From Betaproteobacteria bacterium (GTDB lineage Bacteria > Pseudomonadota > Gammaproteobacteria > Burkholderiales > Rhodocyclaceae): 43,062 nt of DNA. The stretch spans positions 1-43,062 of the forward strand of contig VEPA01000022.1 in assembly GCA_012026675.1 (NCBI GenBank), in the 5' to 3' direction. The first letter of the stretch is position 1, and each line of letters starts with the position of its first letter. The position numbers and the translations under genes are program-made. The notes beneath the pieces were generated by a model. That model was given only the letters and a program-made list of their open reading frames with translations, was not told the DNA's origin and did not search any database. Positions 1,225 to 29,960 of the stretch are shown here, one piece after another.

Positions 1225-1242
1225 GTGTCGGGAAAGTGAACT
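1225..1242 (-). promoter_or_regulatory. Box A element upstream of the flippase gene
   Basis: On the minus strand this reads AGTTCACTTTCCCGACAC, matching 14 of 18 positions of the best-conserved form (AGTTTGCATTCCTGACAC at 17607). It lies 32 nt before the ATG at 1192. A CGATAA hexamer follows 17 nt after CGACAC and could act as a -10. The element recurs in front of the other EPS transcription units in this window. Confidence 0.55.
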
Positions 1243-1292
1243 GTTGGAAAAATTCCGGTATGGCTGCGCGGCGAGAACCCGGCCACTCTGAG

Positions 1293-1314
1293 AAGGTCGG
1301 CGCTGGCGAGACGG
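1293..1314 (+). repeat. Dispersed element B, copy 1
   Basis: A 22-bp match to the dispersed AAAGTCGGCGCTGGCGAGAC-type element. It lies 51 bp beyond the box A core, on the far side from the flippase gene. Box A and element B are similarly paired at 17.6 kb and 25.2 kb. Confidence 0.55.
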
Positions 1315-1468
1315 GGATGCCGACGATTTACGTGAAAAGGCATGCAGCAGACAAGGCGCCGCGATTCCGTCCGGTGGCTTATCGCTTCGCCGCATTCCGG
1401 AGGATTACACTTCTCTGCAGATGCCACCGGCCTGGATGTCCCCGCAAAAATGCATCAGCACCCGATGC

Positions 1469-3667
1469 TCAAGGTAGAACGATTGCCAGACTGTATGGAG
1501 GAATGGAGAAACTGGCGCTTCCGTCGCGGCAGTCGATGAATTCCATTCGGGGCCGTACCTGCATAGTGTTCTCGTTGTTCGGATTCGTATCGGACCCGTC
1601 CAGCACGGCCAGTTGCAGTCGCCCTTGCGGACAGGGCAACGCCAGGGAGACCGTTACTGATTGCGGCCGTGACGACACGACGGCAAGTCGGCGCCCCTCA
1701 TCGAAAGCGACCGCGGTCAGCCCGGAGCAGGGGATACCGGCGCACGTCACCGCGCGGGTCCCGCCCGTGGCGACACGGTTCAGCATTTCGAGCGCAATCC
1801 CGGTCGGACGCAGCCGGTTGGCGTCGGCCAGGTCGCGGGTGATACCCCACAGCCGCACCAGTCCCTTGCCCTCCTGCAGATAGCTGTCGAAGCCGGCGAA
1901 GCTATATACCGCCTGTTCGCGCACGCCGGCCAGTGTTCCTTGCAGCAGGCGACGGGCGAGCGCCGCGCCGCTGGCGGCATTGGTGACGACCGCATTGCGC
2001 ATGGCGGCGTCGGCATTGCCCAGCGTGGTGTGGAAATTTTCTTCATAGACGACCAGGCGCTTGCCTTGGCGGCGGGCGGTATCGGCTTCCTGGCGAATCA
2101 GGGCATCGCTCTCCTCGAAGGCAGCTTTTCGTGCGTCTTCAAGGGAGGCTTCAGAGTCGAGTCGATAGAGGAAATAGGGCGCCACGGCGACACCGGCGGC
2201 TTCCTTTGTGCGTGCGCCGACAGCGCGCGGGCTGTCAGGATTGACGAACTGGGCATTGGCGACGGTGACGATTCGGGTGTCATTGCGGCTGCCCTCGTGC
2301 AACAGGCGGAAGGCGCGGTCGGCTACGGCGGCGTGGGTCGCAGCATCCGGAATCCCGCCGGGACGAAAGATCGTGTTCCAGTTTTCGTTGCCGAACTCGA
2401 GCATGACCGTCGTGAAGCGATGACGGTCGGCGGCCTCGCGCAGCCAGGCGCCGAACTGCCGCCACTCCGCATCGTCGAGCGTGGTCGGCGCCACCACCCA
2501 GGGTTGGGCGCCGATTTCCGCGCACAGCGCAAAAAAATCCGGCAGGCCGTAATGGTTCTGCGCCTCGTTGTCGCCGGGCCGGTAGCGTGCCGGCCGGTGG
2601 CCGTGGGTTGCGGCGAGCCGGTTGTCCAGAGTGTCCCCAAGCTGACCCTGCCAGTCGCGCAGGACGCCGGGCTGCAGTGTCTTCAGCGTATCGACAACCG
2701 CGCGCCGGAAACCGCCTGCTCCGGACACGGCTTCGCCGAGATAGGCGTCGTCGAGCAGCACCTCGCCGTGGCTGGCCTTGATCCCGAGGGTGAGAACACC
2801 GGGCGGTCCGTCGTCCCTGCCATCGAATTCGAACGCATGACGCCGCCACGACGCGTCGAGTGCCACGTCGGCATCGAGAAAAACCGCATGGCCGCCGCGG
2901 TCGAAATGCACATGCAGGCGGGCGCCGGGACTGGCGGCCCGCGCCCAGAATTCCAGGGTCCACTTGCCCTGCACCGGCAGCAGCTTGCCGGCGCGGTCGC
3001 CGATCGTATCGATGTAGTGCAGCAGTTCCGCGGGCCGCCCGGGCGTCGCCATCAGGCGCAGCGACTGTCGGCCCGGACTGCCCGGCCGCGCTTCGTCCGG
3101 CGCGCTGGCGATGCGGCTGTCCTTGCCCAGCCACCAGCCGGGCGCGGCCTGCAGGTCGGCGTTGCGGGTGAGCACCACCACGTCGCCGGCCTTGATGCCA
3201 TCGGCATTGACATCCAGCAAAATCTCCGCGAAGCCATCTGCGCGCTTCTGCGAATCGAGCACGCGCCCCCGGCGCCCAGCCGCCGTGCCGCTGCGAATGT
3301 CATAACGGCCGCCGCTCCAGAAGCCGTCGGGCCGGGCCAGCCAATGGCTGTCATCGACGATGCGGCGGCCCTCGGCCGCCTTGACGATGACGATGGTGCG
3401 GTCGAGTACGGCTTCGAAGCCGGGGTTGGCGAGTATGTTGGCGCGCAGCTGTTCGGCACCCCAGGTACCCGAGCCGCCGAGATTGAGGCCATAGCGCGGT
3501 AAATTGGCATCGAGCAGCGGGCCGTCGGGAGTCAGCGTAGCCGTGCCCGACAGCGCATTGCAGCCCGACAGCAGAAGGCCCGCCGCCAACGCGGCCCACG
3601 CACGTCGAACACGTTCCCTGCGCCGTCCCGCCAGCGCCGACTCTTGCGTGGCCGTGTTCACGCTCAA
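1469..3667 (-). CDS. Secreted lipoprotein with clan GH-A-like glycosidase domain
   Basis: This 732-residue protein has an N-terminal lipoprotein signal: a hydrophobic stretch at 23-34 and lipobox LLSGC with Cys36. Residues 200-315 look like a beta-sandwich carbohydrate-binding module. Residues 320-640 resemble a GH51/GH30/GH39-type TIM barrel. Glu428 in FGNENW fits the acid/base residue of the clan GH-A asparagine-glutamate pair, and Glu542 or Glu543 in VVYEEN fits the nucleophile. The inferred role is trimming or turnover of the EPS made by this locus, from a membrane anchor. The start is a TTG at 3667, 12 nt after the methyltransferase stop; a GTG at 3661 is an alternative. Codons 8-16 carry an element B copy. 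The exact GH family is unresolved. Confidence 0.75.
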   Translation of the reverse strand: MSVNTATQESALAGRRRERVRRAWAALAAGLLLSGCNALSGTATLTPDGPLLDANLPRYGLNLGGSGTWGAEQLRANILANPGFEAVLDRTIVIVKAAEGRRIVDDSHWLARPDGFWSGGRYDIRSGTAAGRRGRVLDSQKRADGFAEILLDVNADGIKAGDVVVLTRNADLQAAPGWWLGKDSRIASAPDEARPGSPGRQSLRLMATPGRPAELLHYIDTIGDRAGKLLPVQGKWTLEFWARAASPGARLHVHFDRGGHAVFLDADVALDASWRRHAFEFDGRDDGPPGVLTLGIKASHGEVLLDDAYLGEAVSGAGGFRRAVVDTLKTLQPGVLRDWQGQLGDTLDNRLAATHGHRPARYRPGDNEAQNHYGLPDFFALCAEIGAQPWVVAPTTLDDAEWRQFGAWLREAADRHRFTTVMLEFGNENWNTIFRPGGIPDAATHAAVADRAFRLLHEGSRNDTRIVTVANAQFVNPDSPRAVGARTKEAAGVAVAPYFLYRLDSEASLEDARKAAFEESDALIRQEADTARRQGKRLVVYEENFHTTLGNADAAMRNAVVTNAASGAALARRLLQGTLAGVREQAVYSFAGFDSYLQEGKGLVRLWGITRDLADANRLRPTGIALEMLNRVATGGTRAVTCAGIPCSGLTAVAFDEGRRLAVVSSRPQSVTVSLALPCPQGRLQLAVLDGSDTNPNNENTMQVRPRMEFIDCRDGSASFSIPPYSLAIVLP
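3623..3645 (-). repeat. Dispersed element B, coding copy in glycosidase lipoprotein
   Basis: An element B copy lies in the sense direction near the 5' end of the gene and encodes ESALAGRR. A matching copy sits near the 5' end of the histidine kinase gene at 9354. Confidence 0.45.
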
Positions 3668-3679
3668 TTGTTCCCGGCC

Positions 3680-4345
3680 TCAGCCGGCCTGCAGCTGCGA
3701 GGCGCCCGGCTTGCGGGCGCTGAGCAGGTACTGGAAGCTCAGGAGGTCGCGGAACATGCCGAAGGTCAGCCGGTCCTTCCATTGGTCCCAACTTCCCCAG
3801 GCGTAGGTCGAGCGTTCCGCGGCCAGTTGCAGGCCGGCCTGCTCGATCAGGTCGATGGCGGTGGCACGGCTGAAGAAACGCAAGTGGGTGCGGTCCATGA
3901 TGCCGGCGGTTTCATAACGCCACGTGCCGGACAGCAGCAGCGGCAGAATGACGCTGTGATGGCGGATGTTGGGCAAGCTGGCGATCAACTGCCCGCCCGG
4001 TCGCAAGAGTGCCTGCAGTCGCGTCAACGTGTCCCAGGGATCAACCAGGTGTTCCAGTACATCCAGGCAGAGGATGAGGTCGAACGAGCCCGGGGCGAAC
4101 CTGCCGATGTGCTGATCGACGTCGCCCTCGTGCAACTCGTCGAGCCGCGTGCGCGCCACGGCGGCGGCATCGGGGAACAGCTCGATGCCGGCAATCCATC
4201 GGGCGCGGCCGGACGCCTTGAGCCAGGCCAGTGTGCCGCCGCCGCCGCAACCGACTTCCAGCACGCGACCGGCTCGCGCCGGCAGCAGCGGCTCGATGTC
4301 CTTGCGCACGAAGGCGAAATAGTTGTCCTGCTTGTCCTCATACAT
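3680..4345 (-). CDS. Class I SAM-dependent methyltransferase
   Basis: This 221-residue cytoplasmic protein has the glycine-rich SAM motif I VLEVGCGGGGTL at residues 28-39 and a motif-IV-like LCLDVLEHL. This is the Methyltransf_11/23 pattern common in polysaccharide loci. The likely role is O-methylation of a sugar or lipid-linked glycan intermediate, but the acceptor cannot be read from sequence. The start ATG at 4345 has GAAGGAG upstream and overlaps the end of the GT25 gene by 8 bp, which points to translational coupling. The next gene begins 12 nt after its stop. Confidence 0.85.
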   Translation of the reverse strand: MYEDKQDNYFAFVRKDIEPLLPARAGRVLEVGCGGGGTLAWLKASGRARWIAGIELFPDAAAVARTRLDELHEGDVDQHIGRFAPGSFDLILCLDVLEHLVDPWDTLTRLQALLRPGGQLIASLPNIRHHSVILPLLLSGTWRYETAGIMDRTHLRFFSRATAIDLIEQAGLQLAAERSTYAWGSWDQWKDRLTFGMFRDLLSFQYLLSARKPGASQLQAG

Positions 4346-5081
4346 GCTGTGCTCCTTCGATTTGCAGGGGCTTGCGACCGGCGCGGTTCTTGATCCCGCG
4401 GGCCATGCCGGCCAGTTGGCGGATGAATGGCATCCGGTCGTACCACTTGTTCGGGAAGATGTCGCTGCGCGAGCTGCGCTGGCCGCCCAGCGACGGCGTC
4501 GCCATCAGCGTGATGACATCCGGGTGGTGCAGGCGGAACAGCGAATAGGCGCCATCGACGTGCATCGGGCTGCCCAGCGGATGGCCGGAGGGACGCCGCA
4601 GGCAGTCCTCGAGGTGGTCGTGCAGGGGGCGCAGGACGCGACGGTTGAGGGCATAGAAATGCGTCGTCGCCAGCGGCGCGCGGGTCTCCTGCCAGCCCGG
4701 CGTGGCGCGATCCTCGGTGGGCTCCACATGACCGAAATAGGCGAAGTCCCAGCAGCCGTCCTTCAGTCTGCCGAGCATGGCATGCGGTGCGGCGCATACG
4801 CGCGGGTCCAGCGCCAGGTCGTCTTCCATGACCAGGATGTTGTCGAGATCGTCGCGAATGGCTTCCTTGAGGATGCCGAGGTGGCTCATGAAGCAGCCGC
4901 GCGCGCCCAGGCTGGGAAACTCGCCGGCATCGGCCGGGCGTACGGCGCGAAAATAGCGGATGCGTGCGCCGTCGGCGGCCAGGCCGGCCTGGCCCAGTTC
5001 GAAATCCATTTCGCGGCGGCGGTCAATGCGCTCCGGCAGATTGACGATGACGCAGCGCTGGAACTGCTCGATCAGATTCAT
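4338..5081 (-). CDS. Glycosyltransferase family 25 (LPS/LOS-type)
   Basis: This 247-residue protein shows the GT25 signature: VIVNLPERIDRR near the N terminus, GCFMSHLGILKEA, then the acidic VMEDDLAL metal/nucleotide-binding motif. Family members transfer galactose or other hexoses onto glycans, so a role in EPS repeat-unit assembly or decoration fits. I chose the ATG at 5081 because AGGAGAG lies 5 nt upstream and the ATG forms an ATGA overlap with the stop of the Wzc-like gene. The frame could extend to 5123, but without a ribosome site. The 3' end overlaps the methyltransferase start. Confidence 0.85.
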   Translation of the reverse strand: MNLIEQFQRCVIVNLPERIDRRREMDFELGQAGLAADGARIRYFRAVRPADAGEFPSLGARGCFMSHLGILKEAIRDDLDNILVMEDDLALDPRVCAAPHAMLGRLKDGCWDFAYFGHVEPTEDRATPGWQETRAPLATTHFYALNRRVLRPLHDHLEDCLRRPSGHPLGSPMHVDGAYSLFRLHHPDVITLMATPSLGGQRSSRSDIFPNKWYDRMPFIRQLAGMARGIKNRAGRKPLQIEGAQHV

Positions 5082-7261
5082 GAGACTCTCCTGGTGTGGA
5101 ATTTCGGGATGCGCAACAGCCATAGCGGCAAGGTGACGAGGCGGGCCAGGACCGCGGTCACCCAGCCCGGCTGGGTGAAATACTCGGCCGCCTTGCGTCC
5201 GGTCAGGTACTCCACCAGCATTTCCCTCAGGTAGCCGCCGCCCTCGAAAGGCTGGACGCGATTGCCCACCACGCCGACGGCCGCCGGGGCAACCTTCTCT
5301 ATCTGGCGTCCGGCGCGGCGCAATTCGCCACGGGTGATGCCGGCGGCTTCGACGACCAGGATCAGGTGCTGCAGGTTGCGCGCCAGCATCTCGGCATCGG
5401 CCGAGAGCAGCAAGGGTGGAATATCGACCAGGACGAAGCGGAAATTCTCTTGCCAGCGGGCCGCCAGTTCGCCTAGGCGGTCGAGGCGGTCAATGTGGCG
5501 CTGGCCTGCGGTGTCGCCCACCCAGACGCGCGCCGGCAGCGTGTCTGCCGCCGGGATGATGCAGTCGGTGGCCGCGGCCTGCCCGGCAAGGCATTGGGCC
5601 AGGCCGGCGATGTCACCGGCACCGTCGCGCATGCGTGCGTCGGGCTTGAAGGCGTTGGCTTCGACCACCAGCGCGGGGCAGCCCAGAGCGTTGAGCGTGC
5701 GGCCCAGCGCCAGCGCCATCTCGCTCGATCCCGCGCCCGGCTTTACCGACGAGAAGGTAAACACGCGGGTACCGTGCTCTTCCTGCTCGCGGATCAGGCC
5801 GCCGGCCAAGCGCCGCAGTTGGTCCTCGCCGAACATCGCGGTGGCGCCGTCGCTGCTTTCCACCATCCAGCCCAGCGCGGGGATGCCGAGCACGCGCTCG
5901 GCGTCATTCACGGTATGCACGCGGCTGTCGAGCAGATCCCGGCCGACGGGGGCGAGCAGGCCGGCGCCGAGCGCGGCGGCCAGCACCATCAGGAACAGCT
6001 TCTTCTTGCCCGGGCCGAAGGGCAGCTCGGGCGGCAATGCCGGCGTGACCAGGCGCACGAAGCCGAAGGAGTTCGCCTCGGCGGCGAATTCGTTGAGGCG
6101 CTCGCGCATCACGTTGAGCTCCTTGCGGTCCTGGTCGAGGTCCTGGGGCAGCGTCATCGCCTGGTTGAACAGGCTGGCGAAGTGCGCCCCCTTCTTCTCC
6201 TGTTCGGCGAAATCGCGGGCGAGATCGGCCTCGACCTGGCGGGCCTGGTCGACCGTGGTCTGGTAGCGCGCAAGAACGCTGCCCGATACCTGCCGGGTCA
6301 GGGTGCCGATCTGTGTCTCGATTTCGGACTCGATGCGCTTCATTTCGGATGTCAGCTCGGCGTAGGCAGGATGCTTCGGGGTGAGTCCCGAGATCTGCGT
6401 CAGCAGTTCGGCGCGGCGCTTGTAGAGGTTCGACTTGAGGTTGGCAAGGCCCGGGTCGATCAGCACCGCCTCCTGCACCGAACGGGTGTTGATGTCGGTT
6501 TCGCCGCGTTTCTGGAAGGCGCCCAGCCTGGCTTCGGCGTCAAAGCGCTTGTTGCGCGCCTCGGTCAGCGCCGCGCGTTGCGCGCCGAGCACACGGTCGT
6601 AGGGGTTCTCCACCTTCTCGCCAAAGCTGCCGACGCCCAATTGCTGGCCGATTTCGGTGCGCTTGGCGGTCTTGGCCTCGATCCGGCGCAGCAGCTCTGC
6701 TTCGCGTTCTTCGATGTTTCGCTGGCGCACGTCGGCGCCATAGATGCGCTCGATCTTCATGCGGTCGAGATAGGTCTTGACCACGGCATTGACCAGGTCC
6801 GCGAGGCCTTCCTTCTTTTCGCTTTGCAGCGAAATCTCGATCATGTAGGTGTCCGGGATCGAGCGCACGCTCATCTGCGTACGCAGGCGTTCCACCGCCT
6901 GGCGCTCGCTCTCGGCCGGCAGGCGCCACACGTCGGCCTTGTCGCCGAGGCTGCGCAGGGCATCCTGCACGATGTCGTAGCGCAGCACGCTGCGGGTCTG
7001 GTGCTCGAGGAATTCGCGGTATTGGGTATTGGACGGGAAGCTCAGTTCGCCGTCATCGCGCAGGTTCTTCATGTAGCGCGGCGCCACCTGCACGGTGGCG
7101 GTGGTGGCGAAAAGGGACTGGCCCTTAATGAAAATCACCGGAATGCCGGCCAGCAACACGAGCAGAAATGCCGCCAGCGCCAGTCGCGGATGAGCGATCA
7201 GGCTGACCAGCGGCTTGATGCCGCGGCTGGGCAGATCGGCGGTAACGGCGGGGGCGGACAT
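5078..7261 (-). CDS. Wzc-like chain-length determinant with degenerate BY-kinase domain
   Basis: The 727-residue protein starts at the ATG at 7261 (AAGGGA upstream); the frame is open to 7303. TM1 is about residues 27-46, followed by a periplasmic Wzz-type domain with coiled-coil-rich residues 180-390, a PELPFGPGKKK linker, TM2 at about 422-441, and a cytoplasmic CapB/BY-kinase-like domain. The Walker A equivalent at about 504-513 reads SSVKPGAGSS, with Ser where the catalytic Lys is expected. Walker A' reads VVEANAFKP instead of an Asp-Ala-Asp form. Walker B VLVDIPP is intact. No C-terminal tyrosine cluster is visible; the tail ends in a hydrophobic segment. It probably controls EPS chain length as a co-polymerase, with doubtful kinase activity. 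It heads a box A unit with GT25, methyltransferase and glycosidase genes. Confidence 0.88.
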   Translation of the reverse strand: MSAPAVTADLPSRGIKPLVSLIAHPRLALAAFLLVLLAGIPVIFIKGQSLFATTATVQVAPRYMKNLRDDGELSFPSNTQYREFLEHQTRSVLRYDIVQDALRSLGDKADVWRLPAESERQAVERLRTQMSVRSIPDTYMIEISLQSEKKEGLADLVNAVVKTYLDRMKIERIYGADVRQRNIEEREAELLRRIEAKTAKRTEIGQQLGVGSFGEKVENPYDRVLGAQRAALTEARNKRFDAEARLGAFQKRGETDINTRSVQEAVLIDPGLANLKSNLYKRRAELLTQISGLTPKHPAYAELTSEMKRIESEIETQIGTLTRQVSGSVLARYQTTVDQARQVEADLARDFAEQEKKGAHFASLFNQAMTLPQDLDQDRKELNVMRERLNEFAAEANSFGFVRLVTPALPPELPFGPGKKKLFLMVLAAALGAGLLAPVGRDLLDSRVHTVNDAERVLGIPALGWMVESSDGATAMFGEDQLRRLAGGLIREQEEHGTRVFTFSSVKPGAGSSEMALALGRTLNALGCPALVVEANAFKPDARMRDGAGDIAGLAQCLAGQAAATDCIIPAADTLPARVWVGDTAGQRHIDRLDRLGELAARWQENFRFVLVDIPPLLLSADAEMLARNLQHLILVVEAAGITRGELRRAGRQIEKVAPAAVGVVGNRVQPFEGGGYLREMLVEYLTGRKAAEYFTQPGWVTAVLARLVTLPLWLLRIPKFHTRRVS

Positions 7262-7319
7262 CGGGGTTCCCTTGTGTGATGCAGTGGATGGCATTACACA
7301 CAAGGCCGACCGCGGGGAT

Positions 7320-7337
7320 GTGACGTAACTGCAAACT
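7320..7337 (-). promoter_or_regulatory. Box A element upstream of the Wzc-like gene
   Basis: The minus-strand sequence is AGTTTGCAGTTACGTCAC, with the first eight positions identical to the best copy. It ends 58 nt before the ATG at 7261 and directly follows the terminator-like hairpin of the preceding gene, marking a transcription-unit boundary. Confidence 0.55.
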
Positions 7338-7340
7338 CTT

Positions 7341-7373
7341 GGAAAACAGCCGCGGCGCGTTCCGGCGCGGCTG
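7341..7373 (-). terminator. Rho-independent terminator after the hybrid histidine kinase gene
   Basis: On the minus strand CAGCCGCG pairs with CGCGGCTG (8 bp, perfect, 11-nt loop) and is followed at once by TTTT. It begins 7 bp after the kinase stop codon and ends 3 bp before the next box A. Confidence 0.65.
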
Positions 7374-7379
7374 AACCGG

Positions 7380-9398
7380 CTATGTCGACGTGAAGTCGGC
7401 GGCTGCCCGTGCCAGTTGCGCGTCGATCTGATGGATCACGGCGTCGATGCGCTCATCCGGCAGGGCGCTGCCGCTTTCCAGTTCATGCGCGAGCGCGGCC
7501 AGCGCATCGCGGCCGACCGTCGCGGCGGAACCCTTGAGGCCGTGGGCCAGGCGCTTCATGGCGCTTTGCGCCGGCGCCCCGCCTGTGGCGAACAGGGTGC
7601 GCAACTGCGCCCCATCCCCACCGTGGCTGCGCAGAAAAGCCGCTCGTGCCTCGGCCAGCAATTCGTGGTTGTACAGGAAGCGTGCCTCGACGCTGCCGTC
7701 GGCCTGCGGCACATCGGCAGCGCCGGCGTCGGTCGGTGGCAGCCAGCGCGTCAGGCAGCCCCAGAGATCGTCGATGTCGATCGGCTTGGGAATGAAGTCG
7801 TGCATTCCGGCCGCCAGGCAGGCGTCCTGTTCCGTCGCGCTGGCGCCCGCCGAGAGGCCGACCACGGGCAGGGTGAAGCCTTTCTCGCGCACGTGGCGCG
7901 TGGCCTCGAGCCCGTCCATGCCGGGCATCTGCACGTCCATCAGGATCAGGTCCGGCGCCGCCGGCATCCCCGCCAGTTGCTCCAGTACCTGATTGCCGTC
8001 CTGCGCCAGCGTGGTCCGGATGCCGGCGCGCTCCAGCCAGCGCAGGATGATCAGCTGATTGACGCTGTCATCTTCGGCGACCAGGATATGGCGGCCGCGA
8101 AACTCCTGCGGTACCTCGCCCGACTGCTGGCTTTCGCCGGATTCCTCCGGTCCTTCGGCTACCTGCAGGGGAACGGTCAGGATGAAGCGGCTGCCGACGC
8201 CGGCCCGGCTTTCCACCTGCAGGTCGCCGCCCATGCCGCGCGCCAGTTCGCGGGTGATGTGCAGGCCGAGGCCGGTACCGCCGAAACGCCGCGCCGTCGA
8301 GGCATCGGCCTGGCTGAAGGCTGAAAACAGGCTGGGCAGCGCTTCCGCGGGAATGCCGATGCCGGTATCGGACACGCACAGGCGCAGCATCGGTACGGTG
8401 CCATCGGTCCGGTCGACACGCAATCCAACCTTGCCCGCCGGAGTGAACTTGATTGCGTTGCCGAGCAGATTGGTGAGGCATTGGCCCAGTCGCAAGCGGT
8501 CACCCAGGAGTCGCGGCGGCACCTCGGGTGCGACATCGAAGACAAGTTCGAGCGCCTTCCCGGCGGGGATCTGGGTGCGGATGGCGGCCAGTTCGGCGAG
8601 GAGGCCGTTGACCGGGAAGGGCAGCTGCTCGAAATCCATGCGGCCGGCTTCAAGCTTGGAGGTATCGAGCAGGTCGTTGATGATGCGCAGCAGGTTGCGC
8701 CCGGATCGCAGGATCTTTTCAAGGGTATCGCGCTGCCGGCTGTCCTGCTCGTCGAGCAGGGCGAGCTGGCTCAAGCCGATGATGCCGTTCATCGGCGTGC
8801 GGATCTCGTGGCTGATGTTGGCGAGGAATTCGCTCTTGGCCCGGTTCGCCGCCTCGGCCGCGGCGCGCGCACGTTCGATTTCGGCGGCGACCTGGCGCTG
8901 CTCGGTCACGTCGTCAAAGACGTGGGTGAAGTTCTCGTCATCGACCTGGATGGACGCAATTTCGACGACGATTTCCCGCCCGTCGCGCCGAGTCATCCGC
9001 CACTCGGCCTGGCTGATGCCCTGTTCGCCCAGCAAGGCCAGGTGGCGCTCGACCCTGGCGGCCGACGACGGGCTCGCCAGCGCCGGGAATGAAGTGCCGC
9101 AAAGCGCCTTGACGTCATGGCCGGTAATGCTCGCCGCGGCGGGATTTGCCCGCACCACCCGCCAGCGCCGATCGGTCTCGATTATTCCGGTAAGCGCATA
9201 GTCGAAATAGACGCGCGCCGCGCTGCTTGCCCTCACCAAATCCAGTCTCGAGTGCAGCGGCTCGACCAGTGCCGCAAGTGCAGCCTGATCCTCGCGCGAC
9301 AGCGATGCTAAGTCGGCCTCTTCGAGCAGTTCGCGCAGCGCGGCGATGGCGCGCCGTGCCGCCAGCGCCGACTTTTGGGAATCGGCGGGAGAGCTCAC
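7380..9398 (-). CDS. Hybrid sensor histidine kinase (PAS-HisKA-HATPase-REC-Hpt)
   Basis: A 672-residue cytoplasmic protein with no membrane segment. PAS is about 65-165. A short coiled coil leads to HisKA with His197 in SHEIRTPMNG. HATPase_c spans about 295-412, with the N-box LLGNAIKF and G-boxes DTGIGIP and GGTGLGLHI. REC is about 437-552, with Asp488 in LILMDVQMPG. Hpt is about 575-665, with His619 in AHGLKGSAA. All phosphorelay residues are intact. The start is a GTG at 9398 that overlaps the upstream TGA (GTGA), so translation is coupled to the PP2C gene. It may feed the OmpR-type regulator at 17785, but this is inference. An element B copy lies at codons 8-15. Confidence 0.92.
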   Translation of the reverse strand: MSSPADSQKSALAARRAIAALRELLEEADLASLSREDQAALAALVEPLHSRLDLVRASSAARVYFDYALTGIIETDRRWRVVRANPAAASITGHDVKALCGTSFPALASPSSAARVERHLALLGEQGISQAEWRMTRRDGREIVVEIASIQVDDENFTHVFDDVTEQRQVAAEIERARAAAEAANRAKSEFLANISHEIRTPMNGIIGLSQLALLDEQDSRQRDTLEKILRSGRNLLRIINDLLDTSKLEAGRMDFEQLPFPVNGLLAELAAIRTQIPAGKALELVFDVAPEVPPRLLGDRLRLGQCLTNLLGNAIKFTPAGKVGLRVDRTDGTVPMLRLCVSDTGIGIPAEALPSLFSAFSQADASTARRFGGTGLGLHITRELARGMGGDLQVESRAGVGSRFILTVPLQVAEGPEESGESQQSGEVPQEFRGRHILVAEDDSVNQLIILRWLERAGIRTTLAQDGNQVLEQLAGMPAAPDLILMDVQMPGMDGLEATRHVREKGFTLPVVGLSAGASATEQDACLAAGMHDFIPKPIDIDDLWGCLTRWLPPTDAGAADVPQADGSVEARFLYNHELLAEARAAFLRSHGGDGAQLRTLFATGGAPAQSAMKRLAHGLKGSAATVGRDALAALAHELESGSALPDERIDAVIHQIDAQLARAAADFTST
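9354..9375 (-). repeat. Dispersed element B, coding copy in histidine kinase
   Basis: A sense-strand copy of element B lies within the first 16 codons of the kinase gene and encodes KSALAARR. It matches the copy at 3623 in both position and reading frame. Confidence 0.45.
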
Positions 9399-12118: not shown

Positions 12119-12127
12119 GCGCAAGAC

Positions 12128-17624: not shown

Positions 17625-17670
17625 GTTTGAAACGGAGTGCGTCCCATCCACCGATGACTGCCAAGGCCCG

Positions 17671-19439: not shown

Positions 19440-19445
19440 GATTGA

Positions 19446-20273: not shown

Positions 20274-20290
20274 TCAAACTCTCCTCTTAC

Positions 20291-21130: not shown

Positions 21131-21131
21131 C

Positions 21132-21638
21132 TCAAACTACCTCGCGTTGAATGACTCTTGCAGGAATGCCGACGGCGAACGCGCCGGGCGGCACGTCTTT
21201 CAGGACCACGGCGTTGGCGCCGATAACGGCGTCGTCGCCGATGTGGATGTCGCCGAGGATCTTGGCGCCGGCGCCGATGTCGCCGCGGTTGCCGATGCGC
21301 GGCGCGCCGCGCTGGCCGGTGCGCTTGAGGCCGATGGTGACACCGTTGCGCAGTATGACGTCGTCGCCGATGACGGCATCGCCGCTGACGATGATGCCGC
21401 CGAAGTGTTCGATGCGCAGCCGGCGCCCGATCTTCGTTTCGCACGGCAGTTCGACGCCGGTGAGCATCTGGCACCCCGTGCGCAGGATCTTGTAGAGCAG
21501 CGAGAAGGGCTTGCGCAGGATGGTCGGGCGGACGCCGTAACGCCACTGGCCGAAGCGGTACACCCACATGACCCACAGCCCCTGGCGCCAGATGTCGCCT
21601 TCGTAGGTCTGCCAGTCTTCCTTCAGGGTAGTGATCAT
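21132..21638 (-). CDS. Serine-O-acetyltransferase-like hexapeptide acetyltransferase
   Basis: A 168-residue CysE/LbH-family protein. An N-terminal helical part (TLKEDWQTYEGD...) is followed by hexapeptide repeats with the HFGGIIVSGDAVIGDDV and GVTIG blocks, and it ends GIPARVI. Polysaccharide loci often use such proteins to O-acetylate the glycan, which is the likely role here. The frame is open to an ATG at 21737 (AGGAAG 13 nt upstream). I prefer ATG 21638 because family members begin close to LKEDW and the extra 33 residues are featureless, but the longer form is possible. Confidence 0.85.
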   Translation of the reverse strand: MITTLKEDWQTYEGDIWRQGLWVMWVYRFGQWRYGVRPTILRKPFSLLYKILRTGCQMLTGVELPCETKIGRRLRIEHFGGIIVSGDAVIGDDVILRNGVTIGLKRTGQRGAPRIGNRGDIGAGAKILGDIHIGDDAVIGANAVVLKDVPPGAFAVGIPARVIQREVV

Positions 21639-21708
21639 GGTGCGCGCGCTTTCCGTGGGCTGTTGACCGTATTGGAGCGCGGCCGGGGTGCCCGATTGCG
21701 AAGCAACC

Positions 21709-21726
21709 GGGAATGGGTTGCAAACT
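21709..21726 (-). promoter_or_regulatory. Weak box A-like element before acetyltransferase/PilZ unit
   Basis: The first eight positions (AGTTTGCA) are identical to the reference, but the GACAC half is missing, giving about 12 of 18 matches. It ends 70 nt before ATG 21638. If translation starts at 21737 the site would be inside the coding sequence and may be fortuitous. Confidence 0.25.
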
Positions 21727-21761
21727 TGTTGTGACATGGACGGCGCCCGCTTCCTGCCGCC

Positions 21762-22760: not shown

Positions 22761-22776
22761 GACGGTGTTCTCCATG

Positions 22777-23961
22777 TCAGGAACCGGTGCGGTCGGTGCG
22801 TATCCAGGCGCTGCTGCGGGCGGCGCCGGCGAGGGTGGTGGCCAGCATGCGCAGTTTCCACAGCAGATAGCCGGGAACGTTCGCCAGTGACCACAGGCGC
22901 GACCAGGGCAGGCGGGCAACGCGCATGGCGGCAAGGATATGCAGGGCGACGATGAGCAGGCTGGCCACCGAAAAGCCGGCAACCCCGGCCAGCGGCGGCG
23001 TCAGGGGGATCAACAAGGCCAGCGCGGCAAGCAGCAGCACGACGTGGTAAGCCAGCGGCAGCAGCAGCAGGTCGGCCAGCGGATCGAGGAAGCGCCACTT
23101 CCCGCGCAGGATGGCGGCGGCCAGCGCGGAGCCGTGTTCGGCCAGTATGCGCAGGCGGCCGCCTTCCCAGCGCACGCGTTGCGCTCGGCTGCCCTGCTCG
23201 CCGGTGGGCATGTCGCCGCGAATCTCGGTGTCATCGGCAAACCCGACGCGAATGCCGGCGGCCACCAGCCTGAGGTGGTACTCAAGATCCTCCACCACCG
23301 ACGTGGCGGTGTAGGGAACCTTTTCCAGCACCTCGCGTCGCAGGGCGAAGCCGTTGCCGAGGATGCCTGCCGACAGTCCAAGCCGGTCGCGGCCGCGCGG
23401 ACGCAGCACGTTGAAGGCCGCCAAGGCGATCTCGGCCAGCCGCGTCCGCGGTGCGGCATCACCGTTGAGCACGGTGTAACGCGCCTGCAGCGCCGGGGCG
23501 CCGCCGGCAAAGTGGCGGCGCAGGCTGGCCAGCAGGTTGCCGGCGGCGATGCTGTCGGCATCGATGACGACGTAGGCGACGTGATCTTCGGCTGCCAGCA
23601 GGGTGAAGGCGTGGTCAAGCGCATAGCCCTTGCCGCGCCGCGTGGCGTCGTGGCGTTCCAGCACGCGGGCACCGGCGGTGCGGGCGATGGCAGCGGTACC
23701 ATCGCTGCAGTTGTCGGCGATCACCACCACATCCGTGTTGCCGTCGGCGTGCGCGATGGCCAGCAGATTGTCGAGGGTGCGGCGAATGCCGGCGGCCTCG
23801 TTGTGTGCCGGCACCAGGATGGCAACGCGGCCAGGCAGCGCCCCGGCCGCAGGATGCGTGGCTGGCAGGCTACCGGCCAGCGGCAGCAGGGCCAGGTAGA
23901 GCGTGCCGGGCAGGGTCAGCACCAGCAAGGCGATGGCAACGAATTCGAGCAGGTCAGTCAT
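22777..23961 (-). CDS. Membrane GT2 glycosyltransferase (processive-type)
   Basis: A 394-residue protein with an N-terminal membrane helix (residues 8-30), a GT2 domain (VAILVPAHNEAAGI, ADNCSDGTA, VIDADS, VVEDLEYHLRL) and the QRVRWEGGR sequence matching the Q-x-x-RW motif of cellulose/hyaluronan/PNAG-type synthases. Two C-terminal membrane helices follow (about 295-345). Despite the processive-type motif, similar enzymes in Wzx-type loci add single sugars, so the mode is uncertain. The start ATG has GGAG 7 nt upstream. It follows the pyrophosphorylase gene by 32 nt. Confidence 0.88.
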   Translation of the reverse strand: MTDLLEFVAIALLVLTLPGTLYLALLPLAGSLPATHPAAGALPGRVAILVPAHNEAAGIRRTLDNLLAIAHADGNTDVVVIADNCSDGTAAIARTAGARVLERHDATRRGKGYALDHAFTLLAAEDHVAYVVIDADSIAAGNLLASLRRHFAGGAPALQARYTVLNGDAAPRTRLAEIALAAFNVLRPRGRDRLGLSAGILGNGFALRREVLEKVPYTATSVVEDLEYHLRLVAAGIRVGFADDTEIRGDMPTGEQGSRAQRVRWEGGRLRILAEHGSALAAAILRGKWRFLDPLADLLLLPLAYHVVLLLAALALLIPLTPPLAGVAGFSVASLLIVALHILAAMRVARLPWSRLWSLANVPGYLLWKLRMLATTLAGAARSSAWIRTDRTGS

Positions 23962-23993
23962 GGCGGGCTCCGGAAGTCAGACTCGCGGCGCAC

Positions 23994-25175
23994 TCAGGTG
24001 GCCGCCGGGGCGGTGGCGACCTCCATGCTGTGGGCCATCACCCAGCGCTGCTCGTCGTTGAGCGGCATGTTCAGGCTGCGTGCGCTGGCAAACAGCCAGT
24101 CGCTGTCGGTATTACCTGCGTCGAGGACGGTGCCGTCCGCATCAAAGCAGTAGTCGTTGCCGATCACCTTGTTCTTCAGGTAGGCAAAGCCGCCGATGCG
24201 GGTGTCATCCATGACAACGCTGCGCTCGATGTGTGCGCCGCTGCCGATCACCGAGCCGGCACCGATCACGGCGGGGCCGACCAGTACCGCGTCGTCATTG
24301 ATCGTGGCACCGCTTCCGATGTAGACCGGGCCGCTGCTGCGGATCTTCGAAAAGTCGGCCCGAACATTGGAGCCGACCCTCAATCCGGAACGCAGCTCGC
24401 GGCCGGGAAGCTTGAAGCCATCGACATAGCCGACCATGACCTGCATCACCGTGCGGTGGTAGTCCTCCAGCCGGCCGATGTCGAACCAGCGGGTAAACGG
24501 CAATTCGACGCCATAGACGGGCGCGCCGGCCGCGACCAGCTGGGGAAACAGCTGGCCGCCGATGTCGAATGGACCGGAAGCCGGAATGTGGGCGAGGATT
24601 TCCGGCTCGAAAATGTAGATTCCGGTACTGGCCTGGCGGCTGCGTGCTTCACCGCGCCGGGGCTTTTCCTGAAAGCCGTGGATGCGGTTGTCGCGGTCGC
24701 ACAGGGCTACGCCGTAGTTCTCGAGTTGATCATCCGGCAGGGTTTTCAGGGCAACGGTAGCCAGCGCGCCCCTCTGGCGGTGAAAGGCCAGCATCGACGA
24801 CAGATTGATGTCCACCATGGCGTCGCCGCAGAGGACGGCAAAGGTGCTGTCGAAGAAGTCGGAGCCTTCGTGGATTTTCCGTATCGCGCCGGCTGACCCC
24901 AAGGGTTGGGTGACAGTCTTGTCATTGCTCTTGTAGCCCTCGAAGGAGTAGGACATCTGGACGCCGAAGCGATGACCGTCGCGAAAGTAGTTTTCTATCT
25001 CCGAGGCCAGATGGCTCGTGTTCACCACGATTTCGTCGAAGCGATGGGCGCGCAGCAAGTCCACCAGGGTCTCCATGACCGGCTTATGCACAATCGGGAT
25101 CATCGGCTTGGGGATGGCATTGGTCATCGGTTGCAAGCGGGTTCCGCGACCGGCGGCAAGGATGAGTGCTTTCAT
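23994..25175 (-). CDS. Sugar-1-phosphate nucleotidyltransferase with LbH domain (GMP/GDP-mannose pyrophosphorylase-like)
   Basis: A 393-residue protein. The N-terminal nucleotidyltransferase domain starts MKALILAAGRGTRLQP with the essential Gly-x-Gly-Thr-Arg loop. It carries IPKPMIPI, LCGDAMVDI (metal Asp) and the GFQEKP block. C-terminal residues 255-345 are hexapeptide repeats (VYIGSGATINDDAVLVGPAVIGAG). This two-domain layout fits mannose-1-phosphate guanylyltransferases and glucose-1-phosphate thymidylyl/uridylyltransferases; substrate choice cannot be settled by eye. It makes an activated sugar donor for the EPS transferases. AAGGAGA precedes the ATG, and box A lies 58 nt upstream. Confidence 0.88.
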   Translation of the reverse strand: MKALILAAGRGTRLQPMTNAIPKPMIPIVHKPVMETLVDLLRAHRFDEIVVNTSHLASEIENYFRDGHRFGVQMSYSFEGYKSNDKTVTQPLGSAGAIRKIHEGSDFFDSTFAVLCGDAMVDINLSSMLAFHRQRGALATVALKTLPDDQLENYGVALCDRDNRIHGFQEKPRRGEARSRQASTGIYIFEPEILAHIPASGPFDIGGQLFPQLVAAGAPVYGVELPFTRWFDIGRLEDYHRTVMQVMVGYVDGFKLPGRELRSGLRVGSNVRADFSKIRSSGPVYIGSGATINDDAVLVGPAVIGAGSVIGSGAHIERSVVMDDTRIGGFAYLKNKVIGNDYCFDADGTVLDAGNTDSDWLFASARSLNMPLNDEQRWVMAHSMEVATAPAAT

Positions 25176-25233
25176 CTGGAGTCTCCTTCTGCGTAATGGG
25201 TGGGAGGATTAGACGCCGGCTGTTCCGGCGACT

Positions 25234-25251
25234 TTGTCCGGATTGAAAACT
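25234..25251 (-). promoter_or_regulatory. Box A element upstream of the pyrophosphorylase gene
   Basis: The minus-strand core is AGTTTTCAATCCGGACAA, 14 of 18 matches to the reference. It ends 58 nt before the ATG at 25175, the same spacing as at 7320. A TCTAAT hexamer lies about 20 nt downstream and could be a -10. Confidence 0.55.
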
Positions 25252-25325
25252 TTTGGCGAACAACATTGCCTGGCGGTCGGTTGCGAAGCCGTGCCGCACC
25301 CGGTCCAAGATCTTGCGTGGCGAAG

Positions 25326-25347
25326 AAAGTCGGCGCTGGCAAGACGG
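25326..25347 (+). repeat. Dispersed element B, copy at 25.3 kb
   Basis: A strong element B copy (AAAGTCGGCGCTGGCAAGAC followed by GG) in the 199-bp gap between two minus-strand genes. It lies 74 bp beyond the box A core. Confidence 0.55.
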
Positions 25348-25374
25348 CGACGGCGTACCCTGGCAGGACCGTTT

Positions 25375-25998
25375 TCAGGCCGGCACGCGGGTCGATGATC
25401 CATAAAAGTGCTCGATGCGCTGGCGGTCGAGTGCCGCATCCGACGGTCCGGCATAGTCGGCGCGCAGGTAAGGATGGTCGGCCCAGGGCAAGGCCTGCGT
25501 CTCCGCCTCCAGCCGCGTAACGAGGTCCGCCACTTGGCCGATCACCCGTGCCGGCACGCCGCCGACGATACTGCCCGGCGGCACGTCGCGCGTGACGACC
25601 GAGCCGGCGGCGACTATTGCTTCCGGCCCGATGGTGACGCCGGGCATGATGATCGCCTGGTGCCCGACGAAGACGTTGTCGCGGATGTCTATCCTGCCCA
25701 CCTTGTCGAGCGGAAAGCTGTAGGCCTGCTTGAGCATGTTCATGACGCCGTCGCGGCCAAACAGGGTGCAGCCCGTCAGATGCACATTGCTGCCGAGGCG
25801 CACGTAAGTGGGATCGGTGATGACGACGTTGGACTGGATGAGGCACTCTTCACCCATTCCGCCGAGGCCGAAATGGCGCTTGCCGACTGGCGTCCAGGCC
25901 TGTCCATCCGGCTTGCAGATGCGACGGTACAGCGCCAGCAGGCGCCCTGTCCTGAGTGCGTAGGCGGCCAGATGCCGGCGCAGGAAATTGGCAATCAT
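25375..25998 (-). CDS. Hexapeptide acetyltransferase (WcaF/maltose-acetyltransferase-like), intact copy
   Basis: A 207-residue LbH protein. An N-terminal helical segment (residues 1-30) is followed by hexapeptide coils including [56 protein letters not shown] and GGVPARVIG, typical of colanic-acid-type acetyltransferases. It probably O-acetylates the EPS. GAGG lies 8 nt before ATG 25998; the longer open frame to 26178 overlaps the neighbour. It is a tandem, visibly homologous copy of the interrupted gene immediately upstream, 8 nt away. Confidence 0.88.
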   Translation of the reverse strand: MIANFLRRHLAAYALRTGRLLALYRRICKPDGQAWTPVGKRHFGLGGMGEECLIQSNVVITDPTYVRLGSNVHLTGCTLFGRDGVMNMLKQAYSFPLDKVGRIDIRDNVFVGHQAIIMPGVTIGPEAIVAAGSVVTRDVPPGSIVGGVPARVIGQVADLVTRLEAETQALPWADHPYLRADYAGPSDAALDRQRIEHFYGSSTRVPA

Positions 25999-26006
25999 GG
26001 CAAGCC

Positions 26007-26690
26007 TCAGGCGCTCCTGGCTACGGCTGGATGATTCAGCGGGTGAATCGCGCCGGACAGTTCCGGCCTGTTCTTCCTGGAAGCGGCTTCGCCACCGAAG
26101 AAATGCTCGATGCGCATCCGTTGCAGTTCCTCGTCCGGGGCGGCGCCATATTCGTTGTGCAGGAACAGTTCGCGCCACGGCAGGGTTTGCATTTCGTCCT
26201 GCAGCCGTGCCACCAGGGCGTCGACCCGGCCGATGCCCCTGGCCGGGACGCCGCCGAAGATGCTGCCCGGCGGCACGTCGCGGGTAACGACGGAACCCGC
26301 TGCGACGATCGCGTTGGGCCCGATCGTGACGCCTGGCATGACGATGGCCTGGTGGCCGATGAATACGTTGTCGCGAATGTCGATCTAGCCGACCTTTTCC
26401 AGCTTGAGGCCGAAGGCCCGTCGCAGCATGTTCACGCTTCCGTCATGGCCGAACAGGGTGCAGCCGGAGAGGCGGACATTGCTGCCAAGGCGCACATAGG
26501 GCGGATCTGTGATCACGACGTTGGTCTGGATGAAGCAATGCTCGCCCATGGCGTAGAGACCGTGGTGCCGCTTGACGATGGCGGCCCAGGCCATGCCGTC
26601 CGGATTGCAGATGCGGCGATAAAGGCCGAGCAGGCGCCCTGTTCTCAGGGCGTAGGCGGTGAGCACGCGACGCAGCAGGCTGGCGATCAC
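26007..26690 (-). pseudogene. Hexapeptide acetyltransferase, tandem copy broken by in-frame amber codon
   Basis: Translation from GTG 26690 gives 101 residues clearly homologous to the neighbour at 25375 (for example AYALRTGRLLGLYRRIC, NVVITDPPYVRLGSNV) up to a TAG at 26387-26385. The same frame then continues without shift through [22 protein letters not shown] and GGVPARGIG to a stop at 26007, which would make 227 residues. The intact copy has an Arg codon at the interrupted place. The rest of the frame is well conserved, so the stop is recent, a sequencing error, or suppressed. The GTG overlaps the upstream GT4 stop (GTGA). The C-terminal tail is about 20 residues longer than in the paralogue. 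Confidence 0.8.
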
Positions 26691-28024
26691 GAATGCACTC
26701 CAAGTCTGGTTTCAAAAATGCGACCGAGTCGCGCGGCATTGAGTGCCAGGTTGTATTTCTGTTGCACGCGAGCACGGCCGCTGCGGGCCAGGTACTGGCG
26801 TAGCGGACCGTCATCCATCAGGCGCGCTAGTGCAGCGGCCAGCTCGTCCGTGTCGGAGGGCGTCACCAGCAAACCGTCGTCGCCGTCGCGAATGAGTTCC
26901 GGGATGCCGGTGATGCGCGTGCTGACACAGGGAATGCCGCTGGCCATGGCTTCCATCAGCACCACCGGGATGCCTTCGGCAAAGCTGGCGAGGGCGAAAG
27001 CATCAGCCAGGGAATACCATGCGCGTACTTCGGTCTGGTTTAACGCTCCGGTGAAGCGGACTACCGACTCGAGGCTGTAGCAGGCCACCGCCGCCTTGAG
27101 ATCGGTTTCATCCGGCCCGGCGCCCACCAGCACCAGCTGCAGCTTCCGGCCCGACTGGTGCAACTTCCGGCAGGCGTCGATCAGGATGCGCTGCCCCTTG
27201 GCCGGCGTCAGGCGCCCGACGCAGAGGATGGTGAATGGCCTTTCCTCGGCCGGCCGGCGCACAGGGGCGTAGTGGTCAGGATCGACTCCGAGCGGGCAGA
27301 TCTCGAATTTGTGCCACTGGCTGGCTGGCGAAAGGTGCATGAGCTGGCTGCGAGCAAAGGCTCCGATGCAGATGATGAAGTCGGCCGCAGCGATCTTCTC
27401 CGGCAACCACTGCCCCGGGGCATCGTAAAACTCATCCGGGCCGTGGACGGTCAGCGACAGACCGACCGGCGCAAACTGCTTGAGGAGCAGCGCGACATTG
27501 GCCGCGGCGCTGGCGAAATGCACGTGCAGGTGCGTCGTGCCGTGGCTTTCCATCCAGCGCGCCAGCATCAGTGCCTCGGTGAAGTAGAAGATTCCATAGA
27601 CCTTCTGGCGCAGGTTCCAGCCGCCCAGGCCGAGGGCAAACAGCAGGGTGCGCAGCCAGGCGGCCGATCGCTGCAACGCCCACAGATGGGCGGCGATTGC
27701 GCCCACCACGCTGTGGAGCTTGACGTAGTAGGTGGCCTCCGCCTCCTGACGCTCGTCGGGCGTCATGTCGCTGACATCCCGGTCCGGTGAATTGATGGAA
27801 GCCACGTCAATGTCGAAGCCGCGCGCGCGCAACTGCAGTACCTCGCGCAGGATGAAAGTGTGCGAAACCGCCGGATAGCGGCTGCCCAGGTAGGCCAGCC
27901 GGGTGCGGCTCCCCAGCCCTTTTTCGACCGGTGGCAAAGAAGCGGCCCGCGACATGCAAGCCGAGTGCGGCGCCGGCTCTGTGGGCGACACGCGCGGCAG
28001 CAGGGTGGCGGAACTCAGCAGCAT
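26687..28024 (-). CDS. GT4-family glycosyltransferase (colanic-acid WcaL-like)
   Basis: A 445-residue GT-B protein. The N-terminal domain contains RYPAVSHTFILREVLQLRARG and HVHFASAAANVALLLKQ, the pattern of WcaL/AmsK-type transferases. The C-terminal Glycos_transf_1 domain has ILCVGRLTPAKGQRILIDA and the E-x7-E motif in FAEGIPVVLMEAMASGIP. It adds a hexose to the EPS repeat unit using a nucleotide sugar. The first 35 residues are featureless, so the start could be internal (Met24). Its first codons overlap the last 10 bp of the next GT4 gene. Confidence 0.9.
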   Translation of the reverse strand: MLLSSATLLPRVSPTEPAPHSACMSRAASLPPVEKGLGSRTRLAYLGSRYPAVSHTFILREVLQLRARGFDIDVASINSPDRDVSDMTPDERQEAEATYYVKLHSVVGAIAAHLWALQRSAAWLRTLLFALGLGGWNLRQKVYGIFYFTEALMLARWMESHGTTHLHVHFASAAANVALLLKQFAPVGLSLTVHGPDEFYDAPGQWLPEKIAAADFIICIGAFARSQLMHLSPASQWHKFEICPLGVDPDHYAPVRRPAEERPFTILCVGRLTPAKGQRILIDACRKLHQSGRKLQLVLVGAGPDETDLKAAVACYSLESVVRFTGALNQTEVRAWYSLADAFALASFAEGIPVVLMEAMASGIPCVSTRITGIPELIRDGDDGLLVTPSDTDELAAALARLMDDGPLRQYLARSGRARVQQKYNLALNAARLGRIFETRLGVHS

Positions 28025-29292
28025 GACAAAGCTCTTTCGACGAGAATTTCACGGTAGGTGTTTTCGGCAGCGGCTATCTTGGCCGCCCAGCTGTAGCGCT
28101 CCTCGACCTGCCGTCTTCCGGCCAGCCCGCGGCGCTGCCAGGCCAGCGGCTGGCGCAGCACATCGCGCAGCGTCGCGGCCAGGTCGTCGATCACCTGCTC
28201 CGGGCTGGTGAGAGGCAGCAGTGCGCCGACCTCGTTGCTGACGATTTCGCCGGGGCCACCGAAGTCAAGGGCGATCACCGGACGGGCGCAGGCCATGGCT
28301 TCAAGCAGCACGGCGCCGCCCGATTCGCGCACGGAGGGCAGGCAGAAGACATGGCAATCACGCATGCGGGCCGCGACCTGATCCAGCGGCAACGCCCCGT
28401 GGAACCGGACGCGGTCGCCAAGACCAAGCTCGTCGCGCAGCGCCGTCCATGCCTCGCGCATGGGGCCGTCGCCGACGATGTCCAGGTGCGCACCGGTGTT
28501 GTCGTCGCGCAGCCGGGCCACGGCGTGCAGTAGCATGTCCAGTCCCTTGATTGGTATCAGGCGGCCGACGAACAGCACGTGCAGGGGCCGGCCGGCGGCG
28601 GGTGCAGAAGGCCACGGCGCCGCGACGAAGCGCGAAAGCTCGACGCCGTTTTCCAGCATCATGCGGCAGCGCGCATGGTGACGTGTCGCGACGGCCTGCA
28701 AAGTGCTGCGGCTGGCGGTGAGGATGCGCGCGGCGCGGCGCGACGAACCGAGGGCGGCGTCCGCCAGGTGTCCTAGTGCGCGCACCTTGATCAGCCAAGT
28801 CGATTCCTGCTTCATGATGGCGCCAAAGCCGCGCGGATCGTTGAGGCCGCTGTTGAGCGGGCCGATCACCGTCGGCAAGCCGAGCCGGCCCAGCCAGGTC
28901 GGCGCGGCGAGCGTGACCGGTGTCACCCGATGCAGCAGGCTCCAGTGTGCGCCGTTTCGCATAAGGCCGCGCAAATGGCGATAGGCAACCAAGTCGAAGA
29001 CGAAATAGTCGAGCGACGAAACCAGAAACACGCTGTGCTCGCTGCGCGGGAAGATGCGGCGTGCCAGTCGGTACAGCGGGCCGGCGAACCACTCGGTGTC
29101 GATGTAGAGGATCTCGCTGCCGGCCATCGGTGCCCCGGCCTGTTCGAGCGCGGCCCGGTTGCGCACGTGCGTCACCAGCGTCACCGCATGGTCGGAGCAC
29201 AGGCGGGCGTACCACTCCCAGCCGATTTGCGATACCGAACCCATGCCCGGACCGCACTGATAGGCCACCAGCAATATCTTTCCTGCGTTCAT
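28015..29292 (-). CDS. GT4-family glycosyltransferase
   Basis: A 425-residue GT-B protein starting [19 protein letters not shown]. The C-terminal Glycos_transf_1 domain has [26 protein letters not shown] and the E-x7-E motif in [17 protein letters not shown]. It probably builds part of the EPS repeat unit. GGGAGG lies 6 nt before ATG 29292, which makes an ATGA overlap with the acetyltransferase stop; the longer frame to 29442 is antisense noise. Its C terminus overlaps the next GT4 gene start by 10 bp, so the cluster is tightly coupled. Confidence 0.9.
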
Positions 29293-29885
29293 GAGCGCCT
29301 CCCTCTTTGTAGGGGGATTGCCGGCACGCCGCCGACCACGCTGGCCGGCGCGACGTCGCGCGTGACCACCGCGTTGGCACCGATCACGGCCCCGTCGCCG
29401 ATATGGACGCCGGGCAGGACGGTGACGCCACGGCCGATCCACACGTTGCAGCCGATGCTTATCGCCCTGGCATCATGGCCGGAGTGGCGCGGCGCCATGC
29501 CCGGGCCGAAGCGGTGGTTGGCGTCGCGCAGGCTAGCGTACTCGCCGATGAGGCTGCCGGCGCCAATCTCGATGCCCTCGAAGGCAACCAGATGCACGCC
29601 GCGCGACAGCACCACGCCGTCACCGATGCGGATCACGCCGCTGTCGCGGGTCTCCAGATGCAGGTCGCGATAGAGGTATAGGTTGCGTCCAAATTCGATG
29701 CGGCGGGTCCCGTGCAGCTCCGGCATGCCGAGCACGATCACTGAAGGGTCGAGCTGCGGCACCTGCGCGCTCAGACACGCAAAGGACCAGAACTGGCGCC
29801 AGCGGCTGTCACCCCGGCCACCGATGCCGACGAATGGACGGATTGCCGTAGCCAAAACCTCCTTCAGTGATCCTCTCGCTTTCAT
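29289..29885 (-). CDS. Hexapeptide-repeat acyltransferase heading the EPS cluster
   Basis: A 198-residue LbH protein. The N-terminal 60 residues have no recognised motif; then come hexapeptide coils ([46 protein letters not shown]), the acetyl-CoA-site segment [33 protein letters not shown], and GGVPA. Likely EPS O-acetylation. I chose ATG 29885 because GAGGAG lies 6 nt upstream; the frame is open to 29927. It is the first gene of the rightmost EPS unit, with box A 57 nt upstream, so it marks the right border of the locus. Confidence 0.88.
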
Positions 29886-29942
29886 CCGGCACTCCTCGCA
29901 TATATCCTGGAGTGCATTTGAAAGCACAAGGCCCCATAGGTT

Positions 29943-29960
29943 GTGTCAGGAATGAAAACT
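29943..29960 (-). promoter_or_regulatory. Box A element at right border of EPS locus
   Basis: The minus-strand core is AGTTTTCATTCCTGACAC, 17 of 18 identical to the copy at 17607. It ends 57 nt before ATG 29885. The flanking CAAAG before and AACC after also resemble other copies. This is the pair of copies that best proves the element. Confidence 0.65.

Follow-up and report, generated by a model that had tools for sequence, protein, structure and literature searches.

The PHO box of PhoB/PhoP consists of two 11-nt direct repeat units that are read head-to-tail by a regulator with a receiver and a winged-helix domain (PMC4415409). Another conserved non-coding site has been tied to EPS loci: in a study of PEP-CTERM genes, phylogenetic profiling links a sigma-54 site, a −24/−12 motif, to both PrsR and EPS loci; the activator is of the NtrC type, and most of the PEP-CTERM operons behind the site consist of a single gene (Haft et al. 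2006, PMC1569441). The box that we describe here, from a betaproteobacterial EPS locus, appears from its sequence to resemble the PHO box in form and the PrsR site in its tie to EPS, and to match neither in sequence.

Our box shares with the PHO box a site at the −35 region and a retained −10, and may share with it a repeat form with a spacing of about 11 bp; with the PrsR site it shares the link between a conserved non-coding element, a response regulator and EPS loci. However, its repeat is TTTKCA whereas that of the PHO box is CTGTCAT, its last unit ends 19–20 nt before the −10 at most sites, and its targets were found in one EPS locus, with nothing to point to phosphate control. At phoA the distance from the last unit to the −10 is shorter than at this box. 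Unlike the PrsR site, it comes with a sigma-70-like −10 and an OmpR/PhoB-type regulator, and its copies lead the operons of a single locus; no conserved GG-N10-GC (the −24/−12 element) was visible by eye in our alignment of 17 sites. The kind of system is known, and this particular box was found in no paper: none named or described it in the literature searched (on the box, EPS control and PHO boxes, with most subscription journals outside the coverage), in agreement with a preliminary description that had known of no named motif to match it. The same literature yielded no description of the control of this EPS locus.

That preliminary description placed an 18-bp element at five minus-strand positions, 1225, 7320, 17607, 25234 and 29943, of the window, by which we mean the whole analysed stretch of 43,062 nt, and all five copies are present in the window sequence. 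The element is conserved as claimed, but it extends over some 28 bp, TTTKCnAAnAG-TTTKCAnTTCn-GACACA, and a −10-like hexamer follows downstream at a fixed distance. The alignment that defines it (A1) contains five sites from the window, one from contig C259 of the same genome, five from the congeneric genome G021, three from the Rhodocyclaceae locus L159 and three from a Quisquiliibacterium MAG. Across these 17 sites 28 bp are conserved, followed by a spacer without conservation and then by the hexamer, which is of the type TNNAAT in 16 of 17; the exception is GATAAG at 1225. In the first 14 sites the hexamer lies 20–21 nt after GACAC in 11, 18 nt in two, which are orthologous flippase promoters, and 25 nt in one (L159:9914), a tie in which TGAAAT is also present at 20 nt.

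In the window the hexamers agree with TATAAT at 4–5 of 6 positions and lie 20–21 nt downstream of the box, or 18 nt at the flippase gene. The leftmost box (minus strand, as are all that follow; 1224–1251, E = 5.2e-7) precedes this Wzx-like flippase gene (start 1192), with GATAAG (1201–1206) 18 nt after GACAC. The next (7319–7346, E = 3.4e-11) stands before a Wzc-like gene (start 7261) and those that follow it, and has TGTAAT (7293–7298) 21 nt after the box core. Between PGPT and a divergent response-regulator gene lies the box at 17606–17633 (E = 9.3e-11), with TGAAAT (17581–17586) 20 nt after GACAC; it heads a 10-kb gene run, PGPT-WecG-NTP-STAS-GalE-PhnD-PP2C-hybrid kinase, which its gene spacing suggests to be one operon. 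The remaining two precede a nucleotidyltransferase gene (start 25175) with glycosyltransferase genes behind it (box 25233–25260, E = 1.1e-7; TCTAAT, 25208–25213, 20 nt after the box core) and a hexapeptide-repeat transferase gene (start 29885) followed by two GT genes (box 29942–29969, E = 5.7e-9; TCAAAT, 29916–29921, 21 nt after GACAC). The spacing from box to start codon is 58 nt at 7320, 58 nt at 25234 and 57 nt at 29943, and 63 nt at 17607 if counted to one of several possible starts, as the preliminary description had it; at 1225 it is 32 nt.

Because a conserved box is followed by a hexamer at a fixed distance, we read each box with its −10 as a promoter. The −10 of the flippase promoter stops 8 nt short of the ATG both in the window (1190–1206) and in G021 (L101, near 7620), and we therefore predict a leaderless or nearly leaderless transcript. 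A scan of 17400–30100 returned no standard sigma-70 promoter (mean of 1.9 in shuffled sequence), which says little, because the scan demands A as the second and T as the last base of the −10, a pattern not found in the three window hexamers of that region. Rfam gave no matches in the window. A half-match that had been noted at 21709 was rejected as a box: the model gives no match there at E ≤ 10, and the position falls within the opening codons of an ORF that has an open and similar counterpart in G021. The identity of the copies at 17607 and 29943 in 17 of 18 positions is correct, but it means little by itself, as 81 pairs of window 18-mers differ by no more than one mismatch.

We then asked how far the box is confined to the locus in its own genome (3,576,610 bases or 3.58 Mb in 267 contigs, from an assembly that is 86% complete). 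A short pattern is weak by itself: the 12-mer AGTTTKCANTYC with up to two mismatches was found 18 times in the window against 17.9 expected, and so is not enriched. With the 18-mer, all three matches genome-wide at up to one mismatch fell in this 43 kb, as did four of eight at up to two mismatches, the fifth being on the adjoining contig C259; at up to three mismatches there were 45 matches against 21 for the reversed pattern. Matches of the 18-mer to its own sites are expected because the pattern was drawn from them. A model built from sequence only on the 17 sites, those of the window included (R1), gave eight matches at E ≤ 10 in this genome (150 of 758 candidates scored; the E-values are rough). 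Six were below E = 1e-6, namely the five in the window and C259:3148, and the next stood at E = 0.025 and 0.34. The scores of the six are partly so by construction because all six were in the training set; the finding is the absence of further matches beyond them. None of these matches fell in the non-EPS part of the window, which had been described as free of copies.

Apart from one mismatch, the first 82 bases of C259 repeat the left end of the window in its minus-strand reading, and the flippase gene continues on C259. All six sites therefore most likely belong to one EPS locus. The gene behind the C259 box encodes a PAS-GGDEF-EAL protein and is followed by one for a PEP-CTERM protein, so that beyond the left end of the window the EPS locus contains this boxed pair (L103, on C259 of G000, 3232–5580). 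C259 also carries, in the opposite direction, a Wzy_C-like gene below the Pfam cut-off. The match at E = 0.025 (C249:2783; L210, 2783–2828), with TGAAAT, stands before a gene for a small secreted-type protein and is a weak, possible seventh site outside the locus.

Next, we looked for the box in other genomes. In the genus, R1 matched at E ≤ 0.1 in two of 31 genomes, the own genome G000 and G021, and these same two alone hold the regulator (E ≤ 1e-40) and the EPS glycosyltransferase (E ≤ 1e-60). Under stricter filters, which scored 37 and 13 candidates per genome in the family and order searches and may let weak sites escape, 10 of 150 genomes of the family sample matched at E ≤ 0.1, only G000, G177 and G198 of them below 0.01, and seven of 399 genomes of the order sample matched at E ≤ 0.01, own genome included. 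Such a scan of the own genome and its relatives had been proposed at the outset, and in the own genome the strong model matches lie together in the EPS locus rather than scattered.

A matrix made from the window's five sites only was run on 64 loci picked by their PGPT protein and not by motif, which form the independent set (L106 and L099 are one contig, and L159 and L206 overlap); the loci L101, L205–L209, L263 and L264 give no independent support because they were fetched for the presence of the motif. Nine matches above 22 bits were found in five of the 64 loci, none in the reversed control, and 59 loci had none. A −10-like hexamer (at least 4 of 6) at 18, 20 or 21 nt followed eight of these nine against four of 17 weaker matches and four of 20 control matches, although both the offsets and the 22-bit line were set after earlier sites and controls had been seen. 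Eight of the nine came from three MAGs, in whose EPS loci the five-site matrix thus recovers the box, and the ninth (L153) lacks a −10. In G021, G177 and the Quisquiliibacterium MAG the boxes precede genes that match those of the window (PGPT, nucleotidyltransferase, hexapeptide transferase, flippase and GT2, not all in each), mostly with 53–87% protein identity to their window counterparts; automated choice of frame or start was wrong at some sites (e.g. G021 17488), and the gene assignments rest on a second comparison too. In G198 a box precedes a GT25-like gene close to the regulator, and another, partial box precedes the STAS-PP2C-kinase genes, with no PGPT match in the 52 kb examined; G333 has regulator and box, with no PGPT match in its 5.2-kb contig.

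Looser searches behaved differently. A 17-mer with up to one mismatch gave 41 matches in 30 of 61 relatives; outside G000 and G021 there were 35 matches in 28 genomes, against 15 for the reversed pattern in all 61. When one match per genome was read (30 of the 41), two of the 28 outside G000 and G021 had a −10-like hexamer at 18, 20 or 21 nt and one passed 22 bits (G005, without a −10). Several single candidates were set aside: the G499 box (37.7 bits) has no −10 and its genome no regulator match at E ≤ 1e-60, so that it is probably due to chance, as are the partial matches in G373 and G553. A weak box-like site with TGTAAT in the Chitinilyticum locus L134 scored 14.6 and 18.3 bits, within the control range, and no regulator orthologue lies in that stretch.

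The best candidate for a protein that reads the box is the OmpR/PhoB-type response regulator encoded in the locus (17785–18516, plus strand; receiver and Trans_reg_C by Pfam), as the preliminary description had suggested. Its residues E7, D8, D51, T80 and K102, which we take to be the usual phosphorylation-site residues, are invariant in 14 aligned homologues. An orthologue with 52–100% identity is present in all seven genomes that have box and −10 at model or matrix strength (G000, G021, G177, Quisquiliibacterium, G198, G295 and G333), in G295 on a contig other than that of the box. When the own genome is left out of the order sample, the five of 398 genomes whose orthologue scores above 260 bits contain all three near-full-length matches (p = 1e-6), a line chosen after the gap had been seen; with all six matching genomes p was 2e-5, and with a preset cut of E ≤ 1e-60 (27 of 398 genomes) it was 0.005. 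Conversely, EPS loci with STAS and PGPT and no regulator orthologue in the examined stretch (L134, L113 and the L129/L130/L132 group) had no R1 match at E ≤ 1. The co-occurrence is nevertheless incomplete, as no box was detected in four further genomes that encode an orthologue: G070 (66% identity; 29 kb around the gene searched and, under stricter filters, the whole genome at E ≤ 0.1), G443 and G385 (52–56%; 40 kb searched in each) and L136 (55%; its 8.8-kb contig searched). Nor does a box of R1 strength precede the regulator's own gene.

The repeat structure of the box gave a modest signal. Lag 11 scored highest among lags 5–17 (0.43), with p = 0.004 for lag 11 itself and 0.077 over all lags, and over their first six bases units 1 and 2 show an agreement of 0.65, higher than at any other lag from 6 to 22. 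The inverted-repeat score over nine pairs (0.468) is no lower than the direct-repeat score (0.429), and the sequence thus suggests an 11-bp period only modestly. The box adjoins or replaces the −35 position, with the sigma-70-like −10 downstream.

We propose, with a probability of roughly 70%, that each site is a regulated promoter whose repeats would form the operator of the OmpR/PhoB-type regulator, which would activate the EPS operons through sigma-70 polymerase. The operator would comprise two 11-bp-spaced repeats (TTTKCA-N5-TTTKCA) and a third, degenerate unit, GACACA. If the first base of the −10 is set at −12, the repeats would span about −59 to −43 and GACACA about −37 to −32, in the place of a −35, and this placement would fit an activator set against RNA polymerase. 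The phosphorylated regulator would bind the repeats, recruit sigma-70 polymerase and turn on the operons of one EPS locus, including the GGDEF-EAL gene just outside the window; we infer binding, activation rather than repression, and transcript starts at the box promoters. The earlier idea of a locus-wide promoter or operator site is supported, with the sites nearly confined to the locus. The hybrid histidine kinase behind box 17607 (PAS, HisKA, HATPase, receiver and Hpt; 7380–9398, minus strand) is a candidate partner that may feed the regulator by phosphorelay. A STAS gene (14110–14448, minus strand) and a SpoIIE-type phosphatase are present as had been described; the STAS protein and the PAS-SpoIIE phosphatase (9395–12124) possibly form a partner-switch module behind the same box, and may act on the same pathway.

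Co-occurrence differs from binding, and the box could be read by another transcription factor, linked or encoded elsewhere, with the response regulator co-occurring through the shared locus; G070, G443, G385 and L136 would then be expected cases, and an AraC-type regulator (31708–32580) adjoins the locus. We consider this unlikely. The AraC gene had no tblastn match (E ≤ 1e-8) in the examined stretches of the six other box-carrying genomes, repeat and placement fit an OmpR/PhoB factor, and G198 and G333 keep regulator and box together where PGPT went unmatched.

More improbable still is that the box serves as the −35 element of promoters recognised by an alternative sigma factor released by the STAS/PP2C switch, a role that the preliminary description had also raised, and for which the STAS, SpoIIE-type phosphatase and HATPase_c_2 domains encoded behind box 17607 would speak. 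Conservation extends over about 28 bp upstream rather than over just two short hexamer-like elements, which exceeds what a sigma factor reads and is more than a −35 would occupy; the hexamer downstream resembles TATAAT, as for sigma-70; no sigma-factor family appeared among the matches listed for 38 window ORFs, many of them scanned against one library; and the STAS loci with no regulator orthologue in the examined stretch show no box either. Finally, the sites might be recently duplicated pieces of a single promoter, or chance resemblances, with no regulation in common: the consensus was drawn from the sites themselves, near-identical 18-mer pairs abound in the window and loose matches are scattered over other genomes. 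Against this, conservation is restricted to the box and the −10 while the spacers are unconserved, the boxes precede matching genes in other genomes at the protein identities given above, and the reversed control produced nothing above 22 bits in the 64 protein-chosen loci; we regard this reading as very improbable.

A broader proposal, to which we give even odds, is that the OmpR/PhoB-type regulator and its 28-bp operator make up a self-contained, portable unit. Its regulon would be closed within one patchily distributed EPS locus, would move with that locus between betaproteobacterial genera, and would join a phosphorelay, the STAS/PP2C switch and c-di-GMP turnover to slime production. For this EPS locus the analysis offers a promoter motif together with a named candidate for its regulator and a defined list of targets (six transcription units). 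If regulation by this protein is right, a nearly closed regulon is built into a large polysaccharide locus, the control of which could be tested with one protein and one 28-mer.

Two further features of the window deserve mention. At 19446–21130 the EPS locus contains two adjoining genes with PilZN (YcgR-type) similarity, the second near the Pfam cut-off, and this pair suggests c-di-GMP control at the protein level. A dispersed repeat with the core CGCC[AG]GCGCCGACT, separate from the box, occurs in the window at 3629, 9360 and 33789 on the plus strand and at 17673 and 37700 on the minus strand, with variants near 1295, 25328, 31580 and 41272. It has at least 40 matches in the own genome, and some copies lie 40–100 nt upstream of the boxes at 1225, 17607 and 25234.
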